The notes under the pieces: model-generated
Database searches by the model: none
What the model saw: the letters and a program-made list of their open reading frames with translations, nothing else
What the model was told of the DNA's origin: nothing
Program-made: the position numbers and the translations under genes
In this document: in pieces, positions 2,787 through 10,837 of the stretch
How the letters are laid out: each line of letters begins with the position of its first letter
How positions within the stretch are numbered: the first letter of the stretch is position 1
Source: a virus
Virus record (IMG/VR): IMGVR_UViG_3300030329_000641
Location: 1-28,844 of that record
DNA length: 28,844 bases
Reading direction: 5' to 3' (one strand)

Positions 2787-3200
2787 TTAAAATATTACTA
2801 TCATTGAATCGTGCATACCACATTTATTATCTACATATTCACCTTTAGTATTATATCCACTAAATTTTAACCTGCCTTTTATGAATCTAATTTCTTTTTT
2901 ATTAGGCAATATATGATCGTGGAATATCTTTGTACTTGTAGATACAGGGAGTAGCATTACACATAGTTTACCTTTTCTACTTTCTTCTATTGCTTTCATA
3001 ATAAATGCCTCTTTTAATTTTCTACTGTAAGGGGGATTTATAAAGTTTCTAAAACCCCATTCTATTTCTAATCCATTCCAAGACATATCGTGTTGATAAG
3101 GACAAGGATCAAAATTAAAATTAAATTCTTCATTAAGTTTATTATAAAATTCGGTTGGTGTTTTCCAATCGTCTTTGTGTTCTAAGTTTCTGTTTTTCAT
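2787..3200 (-). CDS. dam: Phage N6-adenine DNA methyltransferase (Dam-type, PF05869-like)
   Basis: A 137-residue protein with the features of the phage Dam family: DDWKTPTEFYNKL at 10-22, FNFDPCP at 28-34, and the catalytic NPPY at 55-58, followed by LCVMLLPVSTSTKIFHD and an RFIKGRLKF strand. It would transfer a methyl group from S-adenosylmethionine to adenine N6 in DNA, protecting phage DNA from host restriction or marking replication. The length is normal for these minimal enzymes. Its ATG overlaps the TGA of the 38-residue membrane peptide. Target sequence cannot be read from the protein. Confidence 0.92.
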   Translation of the reverse strand: MKNRNLEHKDDWKTPTEFYNKLNEEFNFNFDPCPYQHDMSWNGLEIEWGFRNFINPPYSRKLKEAFIMKAIEESRKGKLCVMLLPVSTSTKIFHDHILPNKKEIRFIKGRLKFSGYNTKGEYVDNKCGMHDSMIVIF

Positions 3201-3313
3201 CTGTAAAATTTATAAATTATATAAGACAATATTGGTGTTGTCATTAGTATTGTAAATACGTTAATATGGGGTTCACCACAAATACCTAATAAATGTTTTA
3301 AAACTTCAATCAT
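3197..3313 (-). CDS. Predicted 38-aa single-pass membrane peptide
   Basis: The gap between the two methyltransferases is filled by an ORF from ATG 3313 to TGA 3199-3197: 38 residues starting MIEVLKHLLGICGEPH and continuing in a hydrophobic stretch, NVFTILMTTPILSYIIYKF, that can span the membrane, with a basic end. Both ends overlap neighbouring genes by four bases (ATGA), so it is translationally coupled on both sides. I recall small proteins with a GxCGExH motif near a membrane helix from other Bacteroidota phages, but cannot verify that. Function unknown. Confidence 0.6.
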   Translation of the reverse strand: MIEVLKHLLGICGEPHINVFTILMTTPILSYIIYKFYR

Positions 3314-3954
3314 ACTTTGTAATTATTTATTCTTTGTTCTGCTATTTTAAAAGTTTTTAAATCTAACTCACTACCAAAATAATTGGCTTTTAGTTTTTTT
3401 ACACAAACACCAAAAGTTCCACTTCCCATAAAACCGTCCCAAACTTTATCATCTTTAGATACAATCCATTCTAGTATTGGCATTACTAATTTTTCAGGTT
3501 TACTCCACACCCCCAATACTTTATTTACATTTCGTGGCACTTCAATTACACTATTTAGCATTTTTCTTTTTCTTGGTGTATATATTCTATTTCCTAAATT
3601 TTTATCTTTCCCAATACAACCCTTTCCTTTTCTTTTTGGCGATCTATCTGCATTATACTCTCCTGTATACGCTTCGTTTTTTAATTCTCCATATATTAAA
3701 ATATGTTCGTGTGTATGTCTAGGCATTTTGTGACTCACCCATCTACCATCTTTAAAGTGCCATATCATTTCAAATCTTGGAACACCAAAAATTTTATTAA
3801 CATAGTGCCTGTTCTGAAAGTTTGTGAAACAAACATAAGTTTTTGCATTAGGTATATAATTTATATTTTTCCAATCATTAAATGGTGGGTCAAAAAGACA
3901 AACATCAAAATCTCCTTTGTTTTTTTTATAATCTATATTTTTTAATATTATCAT
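3310..3954 (-). CDS. DNA methyltransferase, beta class (N4-cytosine/N6-adenine)
   Basis: A 214-residue methyltransferase in beta-class order: catalytic motif IV DPPF at 22-25, a long variable region (residues 60-145) with many basic residues that would form the target-recognition part, SKPEKL at 151-156, then the S-adenosylmethionine site DGFMGSGTFG at 173-182 and NYFGSELD at 191-198. DPPF suits either N6-adenine or N4-cytosine methylation. Start ATG 3954 overlaps the initiator stop (TAATG). No restriction endonuclease partner is nearby, so an orphan protective role is likely. Confidence 0.9.
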   Translation of the reverse strand: MIILKNIDYKKNKGDFDVCLFDPPFNDWKNINYIPNAKTYVCFTNFQNRHYVNKIFGVPRFEMIWHFKDGRWVSHKMPRHTHEHILIYGELKNEAYTGEYNADRSPKRKGKGCIGKDKNLGNRIYTPRKRKMLNSVIEVPRNVNKVLGVWSKPEKLVMPILEWIVSKDDKVWDGFMGSGTFGVCVKKLKANYFGSELDLKTFKIAEQRINNYKV

Positions 3955-6624: not shown

Positions 6625-6762
6625 CTATTTTAAATTCTTTAATATGATATTAAAGTGTCTGCGTAACTTTTTTAAGTTATATACTCTATTATGGTTTTTA
6701 TCATAAGTATATTCCGCGTCCAATTTTATATCTTTTGCGTATATGTGACTATTTTCACTCAT
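6625..6762 (-). CDS. Small basic hypothetical protein, 45 aa
   Basis: ATG at 6762 overlaps the stop of the metallophosphoesterase (ATGA), giving a 45-residue basic protein, MSENSHIYAKDIKLDAEYTY and a Lys/Arg-rich C-terminal helix (LKKLRRHFNIILKNLK). A longer in-frame start at 6825 would lie inside the upstream gene and is not preferred. It is the last gene of the leftward late operon. No family recognised. Confidence 0.6.
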   Translation of the reverse strand: MSENSHIYAKDIKLDAEYTYDKNHNRVYNLKKLRRHFNIILKNLK

Positions 6763-7499
6763 AATTCCATTAGTAAATTTATTCCAAATTTTCCTGAATT
6801 GCAAATAACCGCACAACCAACACATGGTTTTTTACCATATTTAGCGTACGCCATTGCGTAACTTTCGTGGTCAATACCACACCCCACTTGCATACCAAAT
6901 ACTCTAAAATTCTGACCAACATAATGTTCACAGTAAGCCTGTGTGTGGAGATGACCTTGTACCGTATTCATCATATCTGCTCTACATTTTGTACGTGCTG
7001 TTCCCCCTTCACCGTGGATATACTGAACACCGTCCTTAACATATCTTTCTACAAAATTCCAGCCTGGCACTTCTAATACTTCTTTATAGCTTTTAATCCA
7101 CTTGCTAGGTATAGCTGAAGTTTGAGCTTTCCGCATAACCATACGGTCATGGTTACCGATTATTACTGTAGCTTTTGGGAATGCTTTATACCACCTAGCA
7201 ATACGTTCTACTGCAAATTCAAGCTCTTGTTTACCTGAATACTCAGCATCTATATTAACTTCGTGAAAAGAGCTATAATGATTGTCTATTACATCACCAA
7301 TAAACACAACTTCTGTACATTCAAACTCATCATATTTGGATATACAAAATTCTAGGTATTTATCAAGTGAAAATGGTTCGTGAAGATCACCAATAACAAG
7401 GACGTTATTAAGACCGTTGCCTTCGGATTGGCGTATATTTTTTATTAAGTCGTGTTCTGACTTTGTTAAGCGTAACCGATATTCTTTGAGTTGTTTTAT
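6759..7499 (-). CDS. Calcineurin-like metallophosphoesterase, start codon unclear
   Basis: The frame holds a full metallophosphoesterase: GDLH (motif I, about 7391-7380), GDVIDNH (about 7298-7278), GNHD (motif III), HGEGG and GHLH. The enzyme would use two metals to cleave phosphoesters, possibly nucleic acid or cyclic nucleotides. In-frame sequence from the stop at 7508-7506 to motif I contains no ATG, GTG or TTG; a GTG at 7307 lies after motif I and would remove catalytic residues. ATA at 7499-7497, which overlaps the holin stop, is given as a tentative start. It follows the holin and is coupled to the 45-residue gene. Confidence 0.85.
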   Translation of the reverse strand: MKQLKEYRLRLTKSEHDLIKNIRQSEGNGLNNVLVIGDLHEPFSLDKYLEFCISKYDEFECTEVVFIGDVIDNHYSSFHEVNIDAEYSGKQELEFAVERIARWYKAFPKATVIIGNHDRMVMRKAQTSAIPSKWIKSYKEVLEVPGWNFVERYVKDGVQYIHGEGGTARTKCRADMMNTVQGHLHTQAYCEHYVGQNFRVFGMQVGCGIDHESYAMAYAKYGKKPCVGCAVICNSGKFGINLLMEL

Positions 7500-7876
7500 T
7501 TCTTTTTAATTTTTTCTAACCCTCTACTTCCGAAATAAGCTCCTATTGTTGTTATCAAGCATATTTCTAAAAGAGATTTCCATTTGTCATCTACATTAAA
7601 ACTTATTGTTCCACTATCAACAAATACTAGCAATACTGTTGATATTATTAAGAAGGCTAAAGTTAGTGGTCTAATATTAGCAGGCAACCACCCCGCTTTA
7701 TTATCACTTTCCCACCTTCTAGTTATTTGTTCTTCTGCATTTGCCTGAGCATCTAAAATCATTTGCTCAAATTTAATCTTTAATTCTTTACGTTCGGAGT
7801 CAGTAGTGACTACGTTATCCACCAACTTATTAACATCTAAAGACATTCCCCCAAATAGTTTACTTAAAAATTTCAT
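7496..7876 (-). CDS. Holin, GTA 3TM-like
   Basis: A 126-residue protein with an N-terminal helical, charged part (about 1-60), then RPLTLAFLIISTVLLVFVDS (69-88) and LLEICLITTIGAYFGSRG (about 102-119), hydrophobic segments ending in a basic tail EKIKKK. The ITRRWESDNKAGWLPANIRP linker and GAYFGSRGLEK end match the holin family named after gene transfer agents (PF11351-like). It would make membrane lesions that release the M15 peptidase encoded immediately upstream (4-bp ATGA overlap). Confidence 0.8.
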   Translation of the reverse strand: MKFLSKLFGGMSLDVNKLVDNVVTTDSERKELKIKFEQMILDAQANAEEQITRRWESDNKAGWLPANIRPLTLAFLIISTVLLVFVDSGTISFNVDDKWKSLLEICLITTIGAYFGSRGLEKIKKK

Positions 7877-8376
7877 ATTGTATTATAATGTTTTTTAGCT
7901 CTGTATTTAGTCTTGTTGTTTTCGTCTTTATAAGCAACCAGAATCTGTTTTCTATTTCCTGTTATCTTCCAACTTATATGAATCCAATCAGGATTGTCAC
8001 TGTCTTTGTGTGCTGTAGGAGCAGGATTGCCAAATTCTAATATACACTGGTCAAACTCTAACCCTTGACTTATAATAGCATTAAAGATTCTCATATTATC
8101 CATACGTCCACGCTTAACAAACTGTAAGTCCACAGCCTCGCATTTAGTGTGCTGAGATTTATTAGAACCACCTATTGCTGCATTAAGACTTTCAGACCTA
8201 AAGCCACTTGTTACTCTTAATGGACCAACTGCATTCCTGAGAGGTTGTAAAAGTTCAGTGGCTAAAAGTCTGAGTTTGTGTATTCCTTCCTTGTCGGGTG
8301 TGTTAGAAATACCAAGTCTTGTAGCTGTGTTGCTTTTAGTCAATTCAGCTAGTGTGAAATTTTTGCTTATTCTCAT
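7873..8376 (-). CDS. Endolysin, M15 peptidase (D-Ala-D-Ala carboxypeptidase-like)
   Basis: A 167-residue zinc peptidase: MRISKNFTLAELTKSNTATR start, VTSGFRSESLN (55-65), the metal ligands His76 and Asp83 in SQHTKCEAVDLQF, and His133 in WIHISW. Family members cut peptide cross-links or stems in peptidoglycan. No signal peptide is seen, in keeping with holin-dependent release. Between the thioredoxin-like gene (TAATG overlap) and the holin it forms the lysis core. It could instead be virion-associated, but the position beside a holin favours host lysis. Confidence 0.9.
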   Translation of the reverse strand: MRISKNFTLAELTKSNTATRLGISNTPDKEGIHKLRLLATELLQPLRNAVGPLRVTSGFRSESLNAAIGGSNKSQHTKCEAVDLQFVKRGRMDNMRIFNAIISQGLEFDQCILEFGNPAPTAHKDSDNPDWIHISWKITGNRKQILVAYKDENNKTKYRAKKHYNTI

Positions 8377-8765
8377 TATTCAAATTTTGCTAACATCAAA
8401 TTGTCTATGCTTTTTTGCACGTCCTTTTTTGTTGCGTCTAATTGAAACATAATATTAGCCTTAAACCTGTCCTTTTCTTCTCCACTTTCAAATATAATAA
8501 CTGTAGGTATGCAGGTTACATTATACTTCTTTTGTATGCTTGGAAAACGTCCTATATCAACTCTATACTTTTCACAGTCATTTAGTTTAACTATTTCAGT
8601 AAATTGATTAGCCTCATTCCATTCAACCCAAAACTCTACAGCAACAATATCTTTAGCAATTTTATCCTCAAAGTTAGACTCAGTAATAAAGTCTTGACCA
8701 CTAGCTACTCCTATTATAAAAAATAAGATAGTAATTAAGATATATATTAAATCTGTAAAGCTCAT
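8376..8765 (-). CDS. Exported thioredoxin-fold protein without CxxC
   Basis: A 129-residue protein with an N-terminal hydrophobic stretch (5-21) ending VASGQ, a flavobacterial-style signal peptide or membrane anchor. The rest has thioredoxin strands: IVAVEFWVEW (40-49), a partner helix, YRVDIGRFPSIQKKYNV, and the conserved cis-proline in CIPTVIIF (85-92). The usual CxxC after FW is replaced by WNEA, so redox activity of the classical kind is lost; two Cys (64 and 85) remain. It may act as a chaperone or binding protein in the periplasm. Overlaps both neighbours (ATGA and TAATG), between a TM protein and the endolysin. Confidence 0.7.
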   Translation of the reverse strand: MSFTDLIYILITILFFIIGVASGQDFITESNFEDKIAKDIVAVEFWVEWNEANQFTEIVKLNDCEKYRVDIGRFPSIQKKYNVTCIPTVIIFESGEEKDRFKANIMFQLDATKKDVQKSIDNLMLAKFE

Positions 8766-9043
8766 TGCATTTTATCTATTTTATCTCTAAGGTATTTGAT
8801 GTCCTCTTTTATTTCTGTAACGTCCTCTTGCGTTGTCATTATAGTGGCACGTATCATTTGGTCCTTCATGTCAAACTCCAATTTAGTAACTTCGGGTTCA
8901 GGTGGCAACGGCAATAGTTTTGCTTCATCTATAGAAGCATTAAGGCTAAACCACATACCCACTAGCGTTGCTATTAAAACACCTATACCGCCTAATGTTT
9001 TTAGGCTTATTTCAAACTTAGAATCTTCTGAAAGCTCTTTCAT
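8762..9043 (-). CDS. Single-pass membrane protein with coiled coil, 93 aa
   Basis: A 93-residue protein: short cytosolic N-terminus, membrane helix at about 15-32 (LGGIGVLIATLVGMWFSL), a Pro-rich hinge (LPLPPEPEV), and a C-terminal coiled coil (EDVTEIKEDIKYLRDKIDKM). The layout resembles an inner-membrane spanin or accessory holin subunit. TAATG overlap with the upstream 77-residue gene and ATGA with the thioredoxin-like gene. A spanin role is inference. Confidence 0.7.
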   Translation of the reverse strand: MKELSEDSKFEISLKTLGGIGVLIATLVGMWFSLNASIDEAKLLPLPPEPEVTKLEFDMKDQMIRATIMTTQEDVTEIKEDIKYLRDKIDKMQ

Positions 9044-9276
9044 TATTTACAAGATTTATCACATTTTTTACCTGAAAACTTTTCTACTCCACTAATTCCA
9101 AAACAACCAAGTACAACCCAAACGAATGAATCATAAACAAATTCATTAATTACTAAGTCTTTTCCAATCCAACCTGTAAGTAAATCAGCTATCATTATTA
9201 TACACATTATTATAAAAGCAACAAAACCAATTATTGCTTTTTCATTCCAATTATTATCGTCTTTAAATATATTCAT
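9043..9276 (-). CDS. Two-pass membrane protein, holin-like, 77 aa
   Basis: A 77-residue protein with two probable membrane helices (about 14-34, IIGFVAFIIMCIIMIADLL, and about 46-62, VYDSFVWVVLGCFGISG) and a basic Cys-containing tail (KFSGKKCDKSCK). Size, topology and place at the head of the lysis cluster are those of a small holin or antiholin. I do not recognise the family. Its start overlaps the stop of the LDLa-like exported gene. Confidence 0.65.
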   Translation of the reverse strand: MNIFKDDNNWNEKAIIGFVAFIIMCIIMIADLLTGWIGKDLVINEFVYDSFVWVVLGCFGISGVEKFSGKKCDKSCK

Positions 9277-9824
9277 TATAATACTTTTTTAATTTGACCA
9301 TTTTCTATATATATACTTTCAGGTTTTCTAATATGTTGACCATTAAGGTTATACATTAAACCTGTATTCTGTGAATTTTCAATCAATTCTTCTATGCCTG
9401 TATTACAAGGCAACCCTGTAGCACAGTCAATATATTCTTGAGTAAATATTTCCACGTATTCTGTTTCTATTATAGTGTCATAAATAATAACATCTACGTA
9501 TTCAATAACTGTTTCGTAAATGTATTCTATTTCATATATGGTGTCACATTCTTGAGGGGGTGGTCCACATTCTTCTGGTGTTGTAGGTACTGCATCTGCT
9601 TCGTCTGATCCATCTACGCAATCTTCCCACCCGTCATTAAGATAAAACAAACCACCTTCACCATTTGGCACACAGCCATTCGGGGCGTATTGAGTCCAAT
9701 TAGCAGGGTCATCACCACAGAAAAAACCATTTTGTTCTACGCAATCTAAGCATAGTTGTTGAAAGTCATATCCTTGACCAAATGAAAATGATGTTATAAA
9801 TAGTAATGTAATTAGTCTGTTCAT
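9276..9824 (-). CDS. Exported Cys-rich protein: LDLa-like motif and T9SS-like C-terminal tail
   Basis: A 182-residue protein. Residues 1-16 are a signal peptide ending FSFGQ. Residues 24-90 are Cys-rich with DGWEDCVDGSDEAD (65-78), the Ca-binding end of an LDL-receptor class A module. A Tyr/Glu/Ile-rich segment with repeated EYV follows (about 95-130). The end (about 156-182: MYNLNGQHIRKP and SIYIENGQIKKVL) resembles the last part of a type IX secretion sorting domain. It could be displayed on or secreted from the infected cell, or be part of the virion. It is coupled to the following membrane gene and follows the outer-membrane-like protein by 2 bp. All functional statements are inferred. 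Confidence 0.7.
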   Translation of the reverse strand: MNRLITLLFITSFSFGQGYDFQQLCLDCVEQNGFFCGDDPANWTQYAPNGCVPNGEGGLFYLNDGWEDCVDGSDEADAVPTTPEECGPPPQECDTIYEIEYIYETVIEYVDVIIYDTIIETEYVEIFTQEYIDCATGLPCNTGIEELIENSQNTGLMYNLNGQHIRKPESIYIENGQIKKVL

Positions 9825-9826
9825 TG

Positions 9827-10837
9827 TTAAAAAATTAAATAGTTAAATCCAAACTTGCATTCATATATTGGCTTTTCCCAATAGTTTAAATATGTGCCTT
9901 CTACAAACAAACCTAAATGCTTAGTAACTCTAAGACCTGCTACAATACCTGCATCAAGGTCTAATCCTGCTCCATCATACTCAAAGCTATAGTCACTTAA
10001 ACCATAGTGTAAAGGCATTAAATTTAGCCATGTATGTAGCCATGCGTTATTATGATATTTATAATAAGCCACTCCAATAGCCATAGAAAGCTCATATACG
10101 CTCCCTAAGGCGTTTAATTGCTCTTGATTATAGTTTGCTATAGCTTGTCCAAAATAATGCTTGTAAAACTCATCATTTGACGTTGCTATTAATTCACCAT
10201 TGTTAAACCAATGCCAATTGCCATTGACATATTGTGTTGAATATCCAAAATCTTCTGCTAGATCGTTGAATGTGTTTTCACCACTTATCCAAAAATCCTC
10301 AATAGGTAATATATGATAAACAGGGTGCTGACGAACCAAACCACCCACTGTGAAATCAAAGTTGCCTTTTTGTAGTCTATATCTTGTATCAAACGATATA
10401 AACTCCATATTACGTCTTTCATCATTTTTAAGTTGTATTTTAGTGACACATTTATTGCCTAAATATCTTAACCAAAAATCCTGGTTAGTGAAGTCGCTAC
10501 CACGATGACGAATAAATGAATAATTAAATAAATACTCCCAACCAATGCTATTGCCAATAGTAACATTATCACTGACAGCTTTCTCAGTACCATAGTACCA
10601 TGTTTTAACTTTATATTCATAATCAAATCTTGCTATTTTTCTTAAACCAATAGTGAGGTTATAATCGTATGGATTAACTTTTGTGACATCTTCATAACCC
10701 TTGTCTACAGCTATATAGTTTTGGTTCTCGACCATACTTGTATTCATACTCATAGAAGTATAAAATGTAGCATACTTAAAAAAGTCACCTTGACCAAAGC
10801 ATATAAAAGGAAATAATAATAATAGATATTTAATCAT
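9827..10837 (-). CDS. Exported outer-membrane beta-barrel-like protein
   Basis: Start is set to ATG 10837 (MIKYLLLLFPFICFGQG), a clean signal peptide with FGQ cleavage; the frame stays open to 10918 but would place 27 odd residues before it. The mature part, about 320 residues, has alternating aromatic/polar strands (NLTIGLRKIARFDYEYKVKT, FDFTVGGLVRQH), an aromatic-rich sequence and ends in strands with FGFNYLIF, a terminal Phe typical of outer-membrane barrels. No family recognised. The phage may insert it into the host outer membrane, for instance to block further adsorption, or it may be a structural protein of unknown kind. Confidence 0.7.
   Translation of the reverse strand: MIKYLLLLFPFICFGQGDFFKYATFYTSMSMNTSMVENQNYIAVDKGYEDVTKVNPYDYNLTIGLRKIARFDYEYKVKTWYYGTEKAVSDNVTIGNSIGWEYLFNYSFIRHRGSDFTNQDFWLRYLGNKCVTKIQLKNDERRNMEFISFDTRYRLQKGNFDFTVGGLVRQHPVYHILPIEDFWISGENTFNDLAEDFGYSTQYVNGNWHWFNNGELIATSNDEFYKHYFGQAIANYNQEQLNALGSVYELSMAIGVAYYKYHNNAWLHTWLNLMPLHYGLSDYSFEYDGAGLDLDAGIVAGLRVTKHLGLFVEGTYLNYWEKPIYECKFGFNYLIF

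Follow-up and report, generated by a model that had tools for sequence, protein, structure and literature searches.

A conserved two-gene phage cassette pairs a predicted outer-membrane barrel with an LDLa-type protein whose tail resembles short type IX secretion signals

Use of the type IX secretion system (T9SS) by a phage was proposed in 2020 for Cryophage, which encodes proteins with T9SS sorting domains and was suggested to hijack the system of its host (PMC7468147). A compact type of T9SS signal has been described in Prevotella intermedia (PMC11969387). It spans some 40-55 residues and is made up of a PT/GI cleavage site, a motif B containing Tyr and Gly, a spacer of 1-6 residues, a motif D of the form GxYI, in which the Gly is absolutely conserved, and a basic motif E; cleavage and glycan attachment have been shown for some of these signals (PMC11969387). 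Such short signals have been reported only from Prevotella. For another class of substrates, the type B cargo, the genes are linked with those of PorP/SprF shuttle barrels (PMC12618676). Signal peptide cleavage before a glutamine, the Q-rule, is specific to Bacteroidetes (PMC5837995), and proteins following this rule have been noted earlier in Porphyromonas phages (PMC10367356).

The window that we analyzed is a stretch of 28,844 nucleotides (IMG/VR record IMGVR_UViG_3300030329_000641, positions 1 to 28,844). It is a phage genome, in which terminase, portal, head protease, tape measure, M15 endolysin and holin are all recognizable. The terminase has matches in many phages, with Parabacteroides and Flavobacterium phages (Bacteroidota) among the best-scoring ones. 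The low-coordinate end has a gene for a ParB-like protein and two that resemble DNA methyltransferase genes (37-537, 2787-3200 and 3310-3954).

The protein of interest has 182 aa and is encoded at 9276..9824 on the minus strand, as are all features of the cassette for which coordinates are given below. The open reading frame call is backed by a family of about 130 distinct proteins (131 in our set, with a complete tail in 128). Relatives were found at 88 IMG/VR stretches and none among 50,697 isolated phage records; in all, more than 100 phage contigs carry the family. Pfam, NCBIfam and PHROGs gave no family name, either for this protein or for the barrel encoded next to it. Common to the family are a signal peptide, a six-cysteine N-terminal domain (the head) ending in NDGWxDCxDxSDE, a stalk, a D-C-x-x-G-x-P-C loop and a tail of 40-42 residues. 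The stalk of the window protein consists of DT/EY(I) repeats (residues 93-131, 9432..9548), and its length differs among relatives, whose total length ranges from 148 to 308 aa. The conserved loop (residues 133-140, 9405..9428) stands directly before a possible sortase site. Among close relatives, pN/pS is 0.14 for the tail, 0.17 for the head and 0.05 for the stalk. Since the ratio is low in every region, the whole protein, including its tail, is under purifying selection. The AlphaFold model is of low confidence (pLDDT 60), with a disordered stalk, and a fold search with it was uninformative.

A signal peptide is predicted for residues 1-16 (9777..9824), with Q-rule cleavage before Gln17. At the predicted +1 position, 126 of 129 family sequences have glutamine, which bears out the signal peptide named in the initial annotation, a brief reading of the DNA letters made before this analysis. 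The same Q-rule feature is found in the upstream barrel protein and in a downstream thioredoxin-like protein. This feature argues for a Bacteroidota host and for genuine export.

The head (residues 25-86, 9567..9752) contains Cys25, Cys28, Cys36, Cys51, Cys69 and Cys86, together with the acidic residues D64, D71, D74 and E75; D64, D74 and E75 are invariant in the family, and D71 is kept in at least 90%. The LDLa-like motif pointed out in the initial annotation proved to be part of a variant LDLa domain: most relatives (37 of 48) match the LDLa model PF00057, the best at E 7e-4, and LDL-receptor modules rank first in a PDB profile search. The window protein itself, however, stays under the curated cut-off (14.1 bits against 24.1, E 0.055). 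In common with PF00057, the phage head has the acidic calcium-ligand positions, the SDE motif and cysteines at five of the six positions. The phage head differs in that the canonical set of six cysteines is not complete, Asn63 standing at the position of Cys4, and in having an extra cysteine upstream and an insertion between Cys2 and Cys3. The extra cysteine may compensate for the lost Cys4, and the head presumably binds calcium.

The strongest support for the LDLa assignment is transitive. A genome scan identified three cellular relatives of the head domain, L082 (Crocinitomicaceae), L083 (Flavobacteriales) and L084 (Neomarinimicrobiota), which the head profile matches at E 1e-24, 2e-19 and 5e-15, respectively (Z=200,000). 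In L082 and L083, the same Cys4-less head, with Asn for Cys, is present in large proteins that also have a C-terminal T9SS domain, clear in L082 and partly masked by N in L083. L084 contains a phage-like LDLa domain with the canonical Cys at this position beside ordinary LDLa repeats; the order in L084 (9254-11380) is one phage-like domain, then canonical repeats. The three genomes yielded 50, 22 and 11 T9SS-domain matches in the same order, and PorV was found in those of L082 and L083, the two Bacteroidota. By these comparisons, the head is a variant LDLa domain with its closest cellular relatives in Bacteroidota proteins bearing T9SS domains.

The tail of the window protein (residues 141-182, 9279..9404) resembles a short T9SS signal by motif and profile comparisons, with possible cleavage at NT/GI. 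It has a motif B-like YNLNGQHI (residues 158-165, 9330..9353) and a motif D-like SIYI (residues 170-173, 9306..9317), with Ser where most relatives have Gly. TIGR04183, the model for type A T9SS C-terminal domains, gave no match at E<=1 in any of 48 family members, and the standard model is therefore blind to this tail. We counted motif residues over the 128 complete tails with patterns that were written after the family had been seen, so that the following figures measure conservation within the family and not an independent discovery rate: the tail is at the extreme C-terminus and 40-42 residues long in 128/128; motif B, which the search pattern required and all 128 tails passed, has its Gly in 128/128 and its Tyr in 127/128; motif D has Tyr in 126/128, Ile in 128/128 and Gly in only 98/128; a basic motif E residue is present in 128/128; the Ile position of the cleavage motif (NTGI in the window protein) is aliphatic in 128/128; and the spacing of the motifs is fixed.

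Independent tests of the tail came from a genome search, which led to the bacterial protein L115, from PDB profile searches, from a reversed profile and from comparison with T9SS-domain profiles alongside controls. Against 29 long T9SS domains, the tail profile scored 20.1 (P 4e-4), with YNLxGQxI aligned to IYDIxGQxV, while 43 other phage families, represented by their C-termini, reached at most 14.3 and 200 column shuffles at most 19.2. A tail profile that included the L115 tail matched two secreted PDB enzymes at their C-termini, 4kca (E 1.9e-4) and 7jvi (E 0.012), the latter from a Bacteroidaceae metagenome bin (PMC8810776). With the phage-only profile, 4kca again ranked first but at no better than E 0.011, and a yeast splicing factor followed closely at 0.029. 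The reversed tail profile found nothing in the PDB.

The bacterial protein L115 (encoded at 985-1632) has a signal peptide and ends in the same compact tail (E 6e-5 for one genome, of 150 that were searched), and suggests that short T9SS signals occur outside Prevotella. Bacterial copies of tails this compact were very rare in wide genome searches: DNA patterns designed for them had one match in 299 genomes and none in 118, and most weak tail matches in a phylum search were internal or due to chance. In IMG/VR, tail searches returned only the LDLa-head family, and the tail is thus not shown to be modular among phages. Together, the above observations make the tail look like a short T9SS sorting domain. 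Of the T9SS-like C-terminus proposed in the initial annotation, the pattern stands, as it is kept in nearly all complete relatives and beats the controls; a score with the standard T9SS model was not obtained, and it is to this model only that the lack of a score applies.

The gene upstream of the LDLa-head gene encodes a protein of 336 aa (9827..10837) with a signal peptide, for which AlphaFold and fold search predict a 12-strand outer-membrane barrel. The AlphaFold model has 12 main antiparallel strands (pLDDT 75, pTM 0.68). Its top fold matches are outer-membrane barrels, with modest TM-scores, among them the polypeptide exporter barrel FapF; the only clearly similar match in BFVD is the phage protein A0A516LKJ4 (30% identity). 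The barrel has at least 361 relatives in IMG/VR, no tblastn homologue in isolated phages and no match in Pfam or NCBIfam, and the family was not found in 299 bacterial genomes of one order, in a search that was run without a positive control. We also considered that the barrel might be a PorV or a PorP/SprF shuttle, and rejected this at hhalign probabilities of 0.6% and 8.2%, respectively.

Barrel and LDLa-head gene form an obligate pair. Among 80 barrel loci sampled, the LDLa gene follows directly downstream in 79, and the remaining stretch ends 50 bases past the barrel, so that pairing is seen in 79/79 testable loci. In the reverse direction, the barrel is present at 73/73 testable LDLa loci. 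In some phages, a short gene sits between the two. No counterpart of the pair was found in isolated phages or in the sampled bacterial genomes.

Further genes are part of the cassette or adjoin it. The LDLa-head gene is followed by genes for a small membrane protein of 77 aa (9043..9276) and a one-helix membrane protein of 93 aa with a periplasmic coil (8762..9043). Next come an exported thioredoxin-fold protein of 129 aa without CxxC (8376..8765) and, coupled downstream, an M15 peptidase endolysin (7873..8376) and a holin (7496..7876). The seven genes from barrel to holin are coupled in the window, with overlaps of 1-4 nt or a gap of 2 nt. The thioredoxin-fold protein is found downstream in 62 of 63 testable loci, preceded by one or two small membrane proteins. 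W-x-x-W-N-x-x-N replaces the CxxC of this protein (8376-8765 in the window) in those family members that were inspected. The protein is conserved in the cassette and probably redox-inactive. The initial annotation had missed the obligate barrel partner as well as the coupled genes for the thioredoxin-like protein and for lysis. A scan for Bacteroidetes-type promoters gave one match, no more than expected by chance. At 6759-7307, a metallophosphatase-like open reading frame with a GNHDR motif has a GTG start and looks N-terminally shortened in comparison with several relatives of 216-274 aa.

The boldest reading compatible with the data is that of a widespread phage surface-display cassette, in which a dedicated barrel and an LDLa-head protein, the latter delivered by the host T9SS through a minimal 40-residue signal, would alter the surface of the infected cell; we assign this reading a probability of about 0.4. 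In our preferred explanation, a phage of a T9SS-bearing Bacteroidota host would make a small surface protein, probably late in infection, and move it along a host export route. Sec export through the Q-rule signal peptide, a step with sequence support, would be followed by folding of the disulfide-rich LDLa head, a domain assigned by homology, in the periplasm on its stalk of variable length. Judging from the motif match, the PorV/SprA machinery of the host would then recognize the 40-42-residue tail as a short T9SS signal and take the protein across the outer membrane for display on the cell or release from it, possibly with cleavage by a sortase near NT/GI and linkage to surface polysaccharide. 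Finally, the LDLa-head protein would act together with the adjacent phage barrel, with which we infer a physical interaction. We consider T9SS export of the LDLa-head protein probable, and the whole course from Sec export and periplasmic folding to T9SS exit and action with the barrel nearly as probable. Infected cells, or the debris after lysis, might thereby be altered at their surface so that phages no longer adsorb. Such superinfection exclusion or receptor masking is our first choice for the function and the weakest step of the scheme, and we propose it only tentatively. Arrival of a phage protein at the host surface by the host T9SS is consistent with all the sequence evidence and partly supported by it. 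Against the T9SS assignment, no T9SS model scores, and the motif D Gly is not kept in all relatives. The weak PDB match of the phage-only tail profile, the restriction of reported short signals to Prevotella, the rarity of bacterial copies of the tail and the lack of sequence kinship between the barrel and PorV or PorP also count against it.

The tail could also be a docking piece for the phage barrel, in which case the LDLa protein would be periplasmic, or would be exported or anchored by the barrel, and the host T9SS would not be needed. The constant presence of the barrel at testable loci fits this explanation, and so do the restriction of the tail to the LDLa-head family among 80 phage loci, the lack of a T9SS model match and the exporter FapF among the fold matches of the barrel. 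It is nevertheless unlikely in our view, because the tail is closer to T9SS domains than any of the controls, because it is found on a bacterial secreted protein, yet 299 genomes of the order concerned did not yield the barrel, and because relatives of the head domain occur on T9SS cargo. We attach a similarly low probability to a module for outer-membrane disruption or lysis, composed of barrel, LDLa protein, one-helix membrane protein and thioredoxin-like protein, which would act after endolysin and holin in place of a classical spanin. Such a module would not need a T9SS-like surface signal or a head common to bacterial surface proteins, and in the larger phages of the family the cassette does not lie beside the same endolysin and holin. 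In the window, however, translation of these genes is coupled to that of endolysin and holin, the parts of the cassette span inner membrane, periplasm and outer membrane, and the one-helix protein is spanin-like in its layout, a membrane helix and then a periplasmic coil (match to PHROG Rz very weak, E 0.54).

Two further explanations are much less probable. The LDLa-head protein might be a virion component for decoration or adhesion, with other roles for its signal-peptide-like start and its tail. Its gene lies downstream of tail and appendage-like genes, but the conservation of the Q-rule signal peptide in the family and the outer-membrane type of the partner barrel make this very improbable. 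Least credible of all is that the LDLa and T9SS resemblances both reflect chance or convergence in a short cysteine-rich secreted protein: taken singly, the protein stays below the cut-off of both curated models, but the family-level and control tests of head and tail disfavor this explanation.

If surface display by the host T9SS is correct, whole environmental phage lineages, and not a single genome, would use this system to put a protein on the cell surface. Short T9SS signals would extend beyond Prevotella, a 40-residue tag would be available, and there would be a concrete candidate for phage control of adsorption or lysis at the outer membrane. In the initial annotation, the route to the host surface was called little-known. 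The literature that we searched contains no conserved short-signal, two-gene T9SS cargo of a phage; T9SS use by a phage as such is not wholly new, having been proposed once, for Cryophage.

Among the known systems, the P. intermedia short signals, compared here by their published motif description, agree with the phage tail in size, in the Tyr and Gly of motif B, in the basic motif E and in three predicted short strands. The resemblance is partial in the cleavage motif, where the phage tails have an aliphatic residue at the Ile position, and in the close motif D, as its Gly is not absolute in the phage tails. The phage hosts are probably not Prevotella. Type B cargo resembles the phage locus in that a gene for T9SS-type cargo adjoins one for a small outer-membrane barrel (PMC12618676); the phage barrel, however, is not homologous to PorP/PorV and is encoded upstream rather than downstream, and the phage tail is not of type B. 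The Cryophage cargo is likewise phage-encoded and has T9SS-type C-termini, but it comprises three variable genes of a single phage, for two glycoside hydrolases and a PA14 protein, with type A domains of the standard kind (PMC7468147), whereas the window protein belongs to one conserved family with a short signal, an obligate barrel partner and a distribution over more than 100 phage contigs.
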